Below are positions 46-32,234 of a stretch of DNA of 34,463 nucleotides, piece after piece. The position numbers and the translations under genes are program-made. This DNA is from Lentisphaerota bacterium (GTDB taxonomy: Bacteria > Verrucomicrobiota > Kiritimatiellia > PWTM01): assembly GCA_016873715.1 (NCBI GenBank), contig VGWF01000046.1:1-34463 (forward strand), in the 5' to 3' direction. The notes beneath the pieces are model-generated. The model was not told the origin of the DNA and did not search any database. It saw nothing but the letters and a program-made list of their open reading frames with translations. Position 1 is the first letter of the stretch, and the number at the start of each line of letters is the position of its first letter.

Positions 46-171
46 GGGCGCATCTCCGGTTCCTTGACCTGATCCTGCGGGCGCCTCGGAATCCGCAGGC
101 TACGGGGATCCGGCGAACGGACAGCCCGTGCGAGCGTTGCCGTCATCCTTGCACCGGACCGGAGATGCGCC
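46..171 (+). mobile_element. MITE-like element copy A, full length (126 bp)
   Basis: The left terminus GGGCGCATCTCCGGT (46-60) is mirrored by ACCGGAGATGCGCC (158-171), a perfect 14-bp inverted repeat. The 9-mer GCCGGTCCG sits directly outside both ends (37-45 and 172-180), as expected for a target-site duplication. There is no open frame of interest inside. The interior matches copy C along its first ~52 and last ~50 bases, and matches copy D in reverse orientation. Such elements are normally moved in trans by a transposase elsewhere; none is in this window. Confidence 0.88.
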
Positions 172-274
172 GCCGGTCCGGCCCGCTAACGCAATCCTCA
201 TGCTTCCTTCACAGGACGGTGACCGCGGCGGACCACCGTCGGGCGAGCCGGATGCGCGCGGCGGGTGATTGCGG

Positions 275-304
275 CTGGCGGCTCGGCGCGGCGGACGGTA
301 GGAT
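275..304 (+). promoter_or_regulatory. Weak candidate promoter of phoBR
   Basis: TAGGAT (299-304) resembles a -10 box, with CTGGCG (275-280) 18 nt upstream as a poor -35. The same CGGTAGGAT string precedes the second two-component operon at 18968. The predicted start near 311 would leave a short leader carrying GGGAGGG before the start codon. Confidence 0.25.
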
Positions 305-338
305 GGCGCGGGCTCGGGCCGCGCGACGGGAGGGCGGC

Positions 339-1025
339 ATGTCGAAGGAACACATCCTGGTGATCGAGGACGAGGACGACATCCAGGAGCTCGTCCGCTA
401 CACGCTGTTGAAGGAGGGCTTCCGCGTCACGATCGCCGGCGACGGCGAGTCGGGCGTGGAGAGGGCCCGCGAGGGCGGGTTCGACCTCGTCCTGCTCGAC
501 CTCATGCTGCCGGGCATCGACGGCATGGAGGTCTGCCGCATCCTCCAGGGCGATCCCCGCACCTCGTCGCTGCCGGTCATCATGATCACGGCGCGGAGCG
601 AGGAGAGCGACGTCGTCACGGGCCTCCGGATGGGCGCCGAGGACTACGTCACCAAGCCGTTCAGCCCCAAGGTCCTCCTGGCGCGGATCCGCAACGTCTT
701 CCGCCGGCGCAGCCGCCATGCGGCCGCCGAGGAGCCGGTGAAGGTCGGCGATCTCCTCATTCATCCCGGGCGGCACGAGGTGACGCTGAAGGGCCGGCCG
801 CTGACGCTTACGCCGACGGAGTTCGGCATCCTGCACTTCCTCGCCTCGAAGCCCGGCTGGGTGTTCAGCCGCGAGCAGATCGTCGACGGCGTCAAGGGCA
901 CGGACTATCCCGTGACCGACCGCTCGGTGGACGTCCAGATGGTCAACCTGCGCCGGAAGCTCGGCCGCCACGCGGATCTGCTCGAGACCGTCCGGGGCGT
1001 GGGCTACCGCTGCAAGGAGACCTGA
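339..1025 (+). CDS. phoB: PhoB/OmpR-family response regulator
   Basis: This is a two-component response regulator of 228 aa, the usual length for PhoB. The N-terminal receiver domain (about 4-120) carries the acidic pocket E10/D11, phospho-acceptor Asp54 in LVLLDLMLP and Lys106 in YVTKPF. The C-terminal winged helix (about 130-226) has the OmpR/PhoB pattern LTPTEFGILHFL and the recognition segment around DRSVDVQMVNLRRKLG. The ATG at 339 is chosen because homology begins there and GGGAGGG lies just upstream. The stop overlaps the start of the sensor kinase by one base (TGATG). The partner kinase, a porin and phoU downstream suggest phosphate control, but no Pho box was recognised and no pst genes are present, so the signal is inferred. 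Confidence 0.93.
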   Translation: MSKEHILVIEDEDDIQELVRYTLLKEGFRVTIAGDGESGVERAREGGFDLVLLDLMLPGIDGMEVCRILQGDPRTSSLPVIMITARSEESDVVTGLRMGAEDYVTKPFSPKVLLARIRNVFRRRSRHAAAEEPVKVGDLLIHPGRHEVTLKGRPLTLTPTEFGILHFLASKPGWVFSREQIVDGVKGTDYPVTDRSVDVQMVNLRRKLGRHADLLETVRGVGYRCKET

Positions 1026-30941: not shown

Positions 30942-32019
30942 CGGCAGGGTCCTTTCCCTTTCGCGCCGGCGCCTTCGCCTTCTTGGCCACGGGGGCCTTG
31001 GCGGCCTTCCGAACCGGCTTGGCGGGCTTCCTCGCCGTCGCCTTTCGAGCCGCGCGGGCCTTGGGGGCCGCGGGGGGCTTCGGCGCCGGCGCGGGGGCGG
31101 CCGGCGGCGCCGTCACCGTCGCAGCCTTCCCGTCCGCTGCCGCGAGGTTCTCCTCGAACGGCGACACGGGCGGGGGGAAGCTGGGCCGCGGCACCTTCTC
31201 GTCCAGGAGGTCGCGCAGGCGCAGCAACGCGCTGTTCTGCAACTGGCGGACGCGCTCCCGGGTGATGTTGAACCGCTTGCCGACGTCCTCCAGCGTCTCC
31301 ACCGTGACGCCCTCGAGGCCGTAGCGGTACTTGAGGATCTCGCGCTCGCGGAACGGGAGGTACTTGATCAGGTACCCGACCTCCTCCTGGAGCTGGGCGT
31401 CGTTGATCGTGTCGTAGGGCGACTTCGCCTTCTCGTCGCCGACGATCTCGCTGAACGTGCCGCCGTCGTCGTCGCCGATCGGCGCGTCGAGCGACGCGGG
31501 CTTGATGGCCACCGTCTGCCAGTGCGTGACGGTCGCCTCCTCGATGCCCAGTTCCTTCGCGATCTCGGCGTCGGTCGGATCGCGACCGAGTTGCTCGACG
31601 AGCTTGCGCTCCGCCCGGCGCATGCGGCCGATCTTGTCCACCAGGTGGGCCGGCAGGCGGATGGTCTTGCTCTGGTTCGCCAGCGCGCGCTTGATCGCCT
31701 GCTTGATCCACCAGGCGGCGTAGGTGCTCAGCTTGCCGCCCTTCTTCGGATCGAAACGCTCCACGGCCTTCACGAGCCCGATGTTGCCCTCGGAGATCAG
31801 GTCCAGCAGCGGCAGGCCGTAGCGGGCGTAGTCCTGGGCGATCTTGACCACGAGCCGGAGGTTGGCCGAGATCATGTGCTGGCGCGCCTCGCGGTCCCCG
31901 CGCTTGATGCGCGCCGCCAGTTCCACCTCCTGCTGAGGCGTCAGAAGGTCCACCTCGCCGATCTCGCGAAGGTAGATCCGTATCGTCTTGTCGCTCTCTC
32001 CCATCGGGTTCCCCACCAT
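30838..32019 (-). CDS. Primary-type sigma-70 factor with histone-H1-like tail
   Basis: The 393-aa protein is a sigma-70 factor of RpoD/RpoS type lacking region 1.1. It has region 1.2 (about 11-42), regions 2.1-2.4 (44-113, with DLISEGNIGLVKAVERFDP and LSTYAAWWIKQAIKRAL), region 3 (about 120-200) and region 4 (222-275) with helix-turn-helix LEDVGKRFNITRERVRQLQNS. Unusually, a 115-residue tail follows: Pro/Glu to about 295, then a strongly Ala/Lys/Pro/Arg-rich stretch (KARAARKATARKPAKPVRKA and similar, about 300-357) resembling histone H1 tails, and finally an Arg-rich end (360-393) encoded within apt. It may be the housekeeping or a general stress factor. ATG 32019 (GAAGGG upstream) or ATG 32004 could be the start. 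Confidence 0.92.
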   Translation of the reverse strand: MVGNPMGESDKTIRIYLREIGEVDLLTPQQEVELAARIKRGDREARQHMISANLRLVVKIAQDYARYGLPLLDLISEGNIGLVKAVERFDPKKGGKLSTYAAWWIKQAIKRALANQSKTIRLPAHLVDKIGRMRRAERKLVEQLGRDPTDAEIAKELGIEEATVTHWQTVAIKPASLDAPIGDDDGGTFSEIVGDEKAKSPYDTINDAQLQEEVGYLIKYLPFREREILKYRYGLEGVTVETLEDVGKRFNITRERVRQLQNSALLRLRDLLDEKVPRPSFPPPVSPFEENLAAADGKAATVTAPPAAPAPAPKPPAAPKARAARKATARKPAKPVRKAAKAPVAKKAKAPARKGKDPADERRRKNPRGHSRRAGLPQARNRVQGSGARRRKR

Positions 32020-32055
32020 CGACCGCCCTTCACGATCAGTTGGAAGAGGGAGAAT

Positions 32056-32084
32056 GGCATATTCACCGCCCGCGGAAAAGTCAG
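32056..32084 (-). promoter_or_regulatory. Weak candidate promoter of the sigma-factor gene
   Basis: On the minus strand CTGACT (32084-32079) and TATGCC (32061-32056) are 17 nt apart, four and three of six consensus matches. The surrounding stretch is locally A/T-richer than the genome. Evidence is slight. Confidence 0.22.
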
Positions 32085-32106
32085 AAACGCGCGCCGGCCA
32101 TCCGTC

Positions 32107-32234
32107 GGACGCATCTCCGGTCCGCTGCAGCGAAGCGAAGGCGCTCGCACGGGCTTTCCGCTCGACAGATCCCGGTCGCCATGCGGACTCCGAGAGGCGC
32201 GCGCAGGATCAGGTCCGTGAACCGCGGATGCGCC
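32107..32234 (-). mobile_element. MITE-like element copy D, inverted and diverged (128 bp)
   Basis: GGACGCATCTCCGGT (32107-32121) and ACCGCGGATGCGCC (32221-32234) are the family ends with a few substitutions. Read on the minus strand the interior aligns with copy A along its whole length (CCTGATCCTGCG and AAGCCCGTGCGAGCG are shared blocks), so this copy is inserted in the opposite orientation. Flanking CCATCCGTC (32098-32106) and CCATCCATC (32235-32243) match in eight of nine bases. It lies between the divergent sigma and DUF4912 genes. Confidence 0.82.

Follow-up and report, generated by a model that had tools for sequence, protein, structure and literature searches.

What are the short repeats bounded by inverted ends that lie between the genes of this Lentisphaerota contig, and how did they spread? 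The window, i.e. the whole stretch of 34,463 nucleotides analyzed here, corresponds to the entire contig C46, with which its end coordinates agree, of a 5.13-Mb draft genome in 289 contigs. A search with the terminal motif GGGCGCATCTCCGGT, allowing up to three mismatches, reports 10 places in the window, versus a mean of 4.27 and a maximum of 9 in 100 shuffles, none of which reaches 10. Nine of these places are the termini of five elements (Table 1), the tenth, at position 22038 with three mismatches, being probably a chance match.

Elements of the window

The coordinates assigned to elements 1, 2, 4 and 5 by the first-pass annotation are correct, their termini being matches to GGGCGCATCTCCGGT, and direct reading of the 9-mers returns the flanks that it gave for them, two exact, one agreeing in 8/9 and one in 6/9 positions. 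Its "solo end" at 11549-11563 turned out to be the right end of a complete four-unit array, element 3, with an exact GCGCCACCC on both sides. The 9-bp flanks of the five elements are hence exact in three cases, 8/9 in one and 6/9 in one. The array has a canonical end on its right and GCCGGCCATCCCC on its left, and holds 13 matches to a first GTAG palindrome (up to three mismatches, some places being matched on both strands), versus 0.00 in shuffles. The core of element 2 aligns to 25 further cores. An Rfam search of the window returned 0 matches.

Regarding the gene neighbours, the statement that the elements lie mostly at gene 3' ends stands for elements 2 and 4, which start 3 bp past a PhoU ORF and 1 bp past the cstA ORF, respectively. 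It does not stand for element 1, which precedes a response-regulator ORF and overlaps its first possible start, nor for the array, which adjoins a biotin/lipoyl-domain ORF at its listed start, the ORF starts in the window being mechanical and not curated. Element 5 has the 3' end of an ORF without Pfam match on one side and the start of a sigma-70 ORF on the other.

Table 1. Positions of the elements and of related features (window coordinates unless a locus is named; L, locus; C, contig; G, genome, G000 being the host draft)
Feature	Position	Strand	Description
Element 1	46..171	+	~127 bp, core interrupted by an insert; hairpin pair lacking in the window form
Element 1, termini	46-60 and 158-172		Identified by motif matching
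Element 1, duplication	37-45 and 172-180		GCCGGTCCG, exact
Element 2	4898..4971	+	Bare 74-bp core (unit A), both ends found
Element 2, duplication	4889-4897 and 4972-4980		ACATGATTC, exact
Element 3	11029..11563	+	535-bp array made up of four B units; unit A lacking
Element 3, duplication	11020-11028 and 11564-11572		GCGCCACCC, exact
First GTAG palindrome, four inverted pairs	11071..11513		Pairs 11074/11115, 11199/11240, 11324/11363, 11447/11488; period ~125 bp
Element 4	26280..26484	+	205 bp, core interrupted by an insert that carries the second palindrome pair
Element 4, flanks	Around 26280-26484		CGGCGTAGC versus CGGCGCGGA, 6/9 agree
Second palindrome, inverted pair	26354..26426		GGCCGGGCC type; tags are GTGGGG, inward-facing
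Element 5	32107..32234	-	~128 bp, core interrupted by an insert; hairpin pair lacking
Element 5, flanks	32098-32106 and 32235-32243		CCATCCGTC versus CCATCCATC, 8/9
GGGCGCATCTCCGGTTYGT loci	L107, L108, L113 (G064, G065), L112 (G030); position 1501		Single 15-mers, other families of the class
DDE_Tnp_1 match	L056 216-1673 (G000:C75)		Intact 485-aa transposase-like ORF
Second MITE-like family	L006 1570-1981, L003 2212-2622, L009 2053-2401, L050 3459-3687		All in G000

Copy number and distribution

Further copies, whose absence the first-pass annotation held would speak against a mobile family, were sought genome-wide and found. In the host draft genome, the exact 15-bp end was counted 55 times, versus 0 for a reversed control, and 178 times versus 26 when up to two mismatches are allowed. 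A model of the 74-bp core, built from the sequence only of 26 copies with a mean column identity of 93%, reports at least 129 matches at E<=1 among the 150 of 11,050 candidates scored, the best 30 matches each covering at least 71 of the 74 positions. These end counts, the core model and the duplication statistics given below support, across the genome, the annotation's proposal of a high-copy, non-coding family bounded by terminal inverted repeats (TIRs) and flanked by 9-bp duplications.

Outside the host, the exact 15-mer is present in five of 344 other genomes of the class, at six places and at most two per genome; since the reversed control is likewise present in two class genomes, this level is about that of chance. 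None of the six places has an inward partner within three mismatches in the retrieved loci, none of the five examined has a downstream inverted copy of its first 25 bases at fewer than nine mismatches, and none of the ORFs at four of these loci, judged by eye, was recognised as a transposase. As four of the six places extend into a longer common motif, GGGCGCATCTCCGGTTYGT, the end may have distant kin, or the motif may be unrelated to it. None of 37 relatives has a 23-base pattern joining end and core, strict paired ends (30-60 bp apart) returned no hits in either genome_contigs or viral contigs, the host's own records being maybe excluded there, and the element array has no match among plasmids. 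The GGGCGCATCTCCGGT-bounded elements are a lineage-specific MITE-type family: they are short (74-735 bp), numerous and TIR-bounded, and contain no transposase, as judged by length and unit reading, the core being too short and the larger forms consisting of repeated palindrome units.

Target duplications

Forty-five clusters were defined by inward-pointing outermost ends (up to three mismatches) and chosen by these ends alone before the flanks were inspected; clusters with wrong outer ends were retained, and 44 sites are independent because window element 1 and L036 are the same site. Without any shift, the flanks of 7 of the 45 are exact over 9 bp and those of 13 agree in 8 or 9 positions, versus 0.15% of mispaired flanks reaching 8 and none reaching 9. 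When a shift of 1 bp per side is allowed, 12 clusters are exact, versus 0 of 1,980 mispairings, and 21 reach 8 or 9 identical positions, versus 1.0% of mispairings. Mean flank identity is highest at a length of 9 (0.575 versus 0.276-0.464 for all other lengths between 4 and 14), so that the duplication has a fixed length of 9 bp, as in MITEs. Twelve outer ends set by hand, an uncontrolled series with shifts of up to 3 bp, gave 6 exact, 4 at 8/9 and 2 at 6/9. Two results count against the mobile family proposed below: 24 of the 45 clusters agree in at most 7/9 even with the shift, and the comparison of 53 joined flanks with the retrieved loci gave no credible empty site, its two spanning matches being one site represented twice and a 42-bp stretch at 83%.

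Modular architecture

Unit A is the 74-bp core, which possesses two ends of its own and also occurs alone. In a first branch, it is followed by B units in tandem, each comprising an inverted palindrome pair, GTAGTCATCACGCTCCGCGTGATGAC and GTCCTCACGCGGAGCGTGAGGACTAC, with outward tags; composites with one B unit measure mostly 231-239 bp, while others contain two (L037), three (L032 and L021), four (L001) or five (L052). In a second branch, unit A is split by an insert, for a total of 127-130 bp, and in a 201-207-bp class of split cores the insert often carries a GGCCGGGCC palindrome pair with inward tags. The third branch is made up of B units without unit A, such as the window array. The left ends of these arrays are approximately GGCCATCACCCC, unlike the canonical end, which again counts against the explanation that we favour. 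Among ten one-ended arrays, an uncontrolled set in whose loci stray 8/9 matches occur elsewhere, the adjacent 9-mer is exact in four (the window array, L003, L030 and L050, of which L050 begins within a truncated core), 8/9 in three and lacking in three. L135 and L136 are B arrays without a good end. Several composites are bordered as wholes by target duplications: the core-plus-B composites L015, L024, L026 and L055 each have a different exact duplication, the hairpin-class composite L090 has its own, and L052 (735 bp, five B units) is flanked by an exact 9-bp duplication. Ends, copy number, duplications and modular interiors are what the data show.

Two sites were assembled in two forms. Positions 1-202 of the window represent the same site as the beginning of contig C92, with identical flanks and duplication, the window form measuring 127 bp and the C92 form 204 bp; the difference is a 77-bp hairpin bordered by a 7-bp direct repeat. 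A second such pair, formed by the end of C193 and the beginning of C244, shows a similar overlap, its two forms being distinguished by an additional portion of the hairpin unit. Both sites lie at contig ends; variation between strains or misassembly could account for the two forms, the latter possibility counting against the favoured explanation. As each pair overlaps across an element, its two contigs probably adjoin each other in the genome.

GTAG palindromes as cargo

The presence of two kinds of GTAG palindrome inside the elements was missed at first pass. The first type, GTAGTCATCACGC..., is arranged in inverted pairs with outward tags. With up to two mismatches, it has 159 matches in the host, three in G013, and none in the other 56 of 57 relatives; viral contigs returned 0. 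Its lone copies, with no element end of up to four mismatches within 250 bp, comprise two on C6, one on C153 and three in G013. The second type, GTAGGGCCGGGC..., has inward tags, often GTGG, and is unrelated to the first. It has 38 matches in the host, 18 in G005, a genome of the same family, one in G020 and 0 in 55 others. G005 has no exact 15-mer end at all, and among ten of its loci that were read, eight are without an end within four mismatches nearby and two have 4-mismatch places only. Eight host loci outside known elements behave similarly, six being without an end and two having a 3-mismatch place. Some of the G005 copies (L151-L160) are clustered with a spacing of ~190-350 bp.

Since both palindromes are found outside the element, including in relatives without exact ends, they are independent of it, and since composites have their own duplications at several sites, they moved as cargo. 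By tag, palindrome and inverted pairing, both types fit the GTAG REPs of the literature (PMC3733652). The host genome has four Y1 transposase matches, three of them above the family cut-off. At these four loci (~3.1-3.3 kb each), neither palindrome was found with up to six mismatches, and no RAYT flanked by these repeats was seen there.

Search for the transposase

Profiles of IS256, ISKra4 and DUF772 return no match in the draft genome at E<=0.1, and the DDE_Tnp_1 profile returns one weak match below cut-off, on C75, which we take to be IS1380-like. This gene was rejected as a partner: its locus is without an end at fewer than three mismatches and has one 3-mismatch place downstream. A search for a partner IS from ends 750-4000 bp apart with flanks agreeing in at least 8/9 gave 12 candidates, each with one end at 4-6 mismatches, and these were judged to be chance. 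With five profiles, Y1 included, no resident IS sharing both the ends and the duplication length was found in the 289-contig draft. Multi-copy IS are often lost from fragmented drafts, and the missing transposase is therefore no proof of absence; it is counted against the favoured explanation, four relevant profiles having been searched in a fragmented draft. The 9-bp duplication and the GGG ends resemble those of the ISKra4 group, whose transposase was sought with its profile and not found. Duplications of 8 or 9 bp are given for ISKra4 and IS256 (Mutator type), with which the 9 bp observed here fits (PMC3942029).

The genome also contains a second MITE-like family with CAGGGCAGACGCATCTT ends, a length of 229-412 bp and 10-bp flanking repeats, exact in three of four copies and 9/10 in one. 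These ends and GGGCGCATCTCCGGT have GGGC and GCATCT in common. Its CAGGG start and its length are, we assume, reminiscent of ISAs1.

Origin and spread of the family

The best explanation, to which we assign a probability of roughly 0.85, is a lineage-specific MITE-type family mobilized in trans by a DDE transposase, with composites that spread GTAG palindromes as passengers and that change in place. The enzyme and its chemistry are what we infer: the chemistry is presumably of the DDE type because the elements have TIRs and a fixed duplication length, and movement would be driven in trans. The transposase would cut at the element ends, which would be joined across a 9-bp stagger, giving rise to the 9-bp duplications. 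The 74-bp core was built into composites with unrelated GTAG-type (REP-like) palindromes, one pair lying in a side unit repeated one to five times per element, and a different pair within the insert that splits the core. Composites then transposed as units, so that the palindromes spread as passengers, and unit number and hairpin presence would change in place, most likely through direct-repeat recombination or slippage. A more ambitious version, which we advance tentatively and with some doubt, is that a DDE-type MITE family twice independently took up unrelated RAYT-type pairs (REPINs) and became their main vehicle in this genome, providing a second transposition chemistry, with tandem growth and the loss of hairpins adjusting their number in place and with their own transposase unneeded.

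Alternatively, the palindromes might have entered scattered cores singly, as REP or REPIN, through their own Y1 (RAYT) transposase and not inside composites. The occurrence of both palindromes outside elements and the Y1 matches of the genome, three of the four over the family cut-off, would suit such entries, but the core-plus-B composites examined have an identical join, several composites are enclosed in their entirety by exact duplications of their own, an unexpected outcome if the palindromes had entered one by one, and the palindromes are at 0 of 4 Y1 loci; we consider it unlikely. We find it quite unlikely that the elements are immobile now and were so recently, i.e. an ancient repeat family maintained for termination, RNA stabilisation or protein binding: the position of the window elements between genes, their strong folding and the decayed flanks of many copies would agree with this, but duplications at many sites attest past transposition, whatever the present role, and near absence from the 344 class genomes suggests a recent burst. 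As for chance similarity in a GC-rich genome, random 3-mismatch matches do arise, as the shuffled windows show, but the exact counts, the duplication statistics and the aligned interiors already refute it, leaving it a negligible probability.

The usual account of REP sequences invokes their own Y1 transposase, and palindromes carried in elements with 9-bp duplications would represent a second spreading route. The family of MITE-type composites is a clean model of a 74-bp element growing modules while still moving, and the two-form sites would allow a direct test of gain and loss.

Comparison with known systems

MITEs with 9-bp duplications, MITEs bearing GTAG REPs and modular repeats with tandem units are already known. 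A literature search with most subscription papers outside its coverage returned no report of one TIR family with two unrelated GTAG pairs. MITEAba12, the partner of ISAba12, is a short MITE with 9-bp duplications, but its resident partner IS is known, and it measures 113 bp, has 16-bp TIRs of another sequence and has no modules reported in the passages considered (PMC6382973). BOX of Streptococcus pneumoniae is also modular, with variable tandem inner units that differ between strains; its organization is boxA-boxB(n)-boxC, whereas the present core is two-ended and its units follow the core or stand alone with 9-bp duplications (PMC3049150). BrickBuilt of Porphyromonas gingivalis is likewise a MITE with a variable internal tandem repeat and no transposase remnant. 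It differs in its 23-nt repeats, in its 19 copies, of which four have both TIRs and three of these four have duplications of unequal length, and in that no palindrome cargo is reported in the sections considered (PMC4596501).

GTAG-tagged REPs and their RAYTs resemble the present palindromes in the GTAG tag, the palindrome, the inverted pairs and the clusters with flanking DNA, and some REP dimers of A. variabilis sit within other palindromic repeats. Here, in contrast, many palindromes lie within elements with 9-bp duplications, and no adjoining RAYT was found (PMC3733652). A comparable architecture, on which the likeness is judged, is that of QMITE2 from Coxiella burnetii, a small MITE that has TIRs and 7-11-nt direct repeats and includes a GTAG REP, its small copies being essentially REPs. 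However, QMITE2 measures 150-190 bp and has one REP type, whereas the present family has two unrelated palindrome pairs, tandem arrays with as many as five units, duplications of 9 bp and different ends (PMC5896051).
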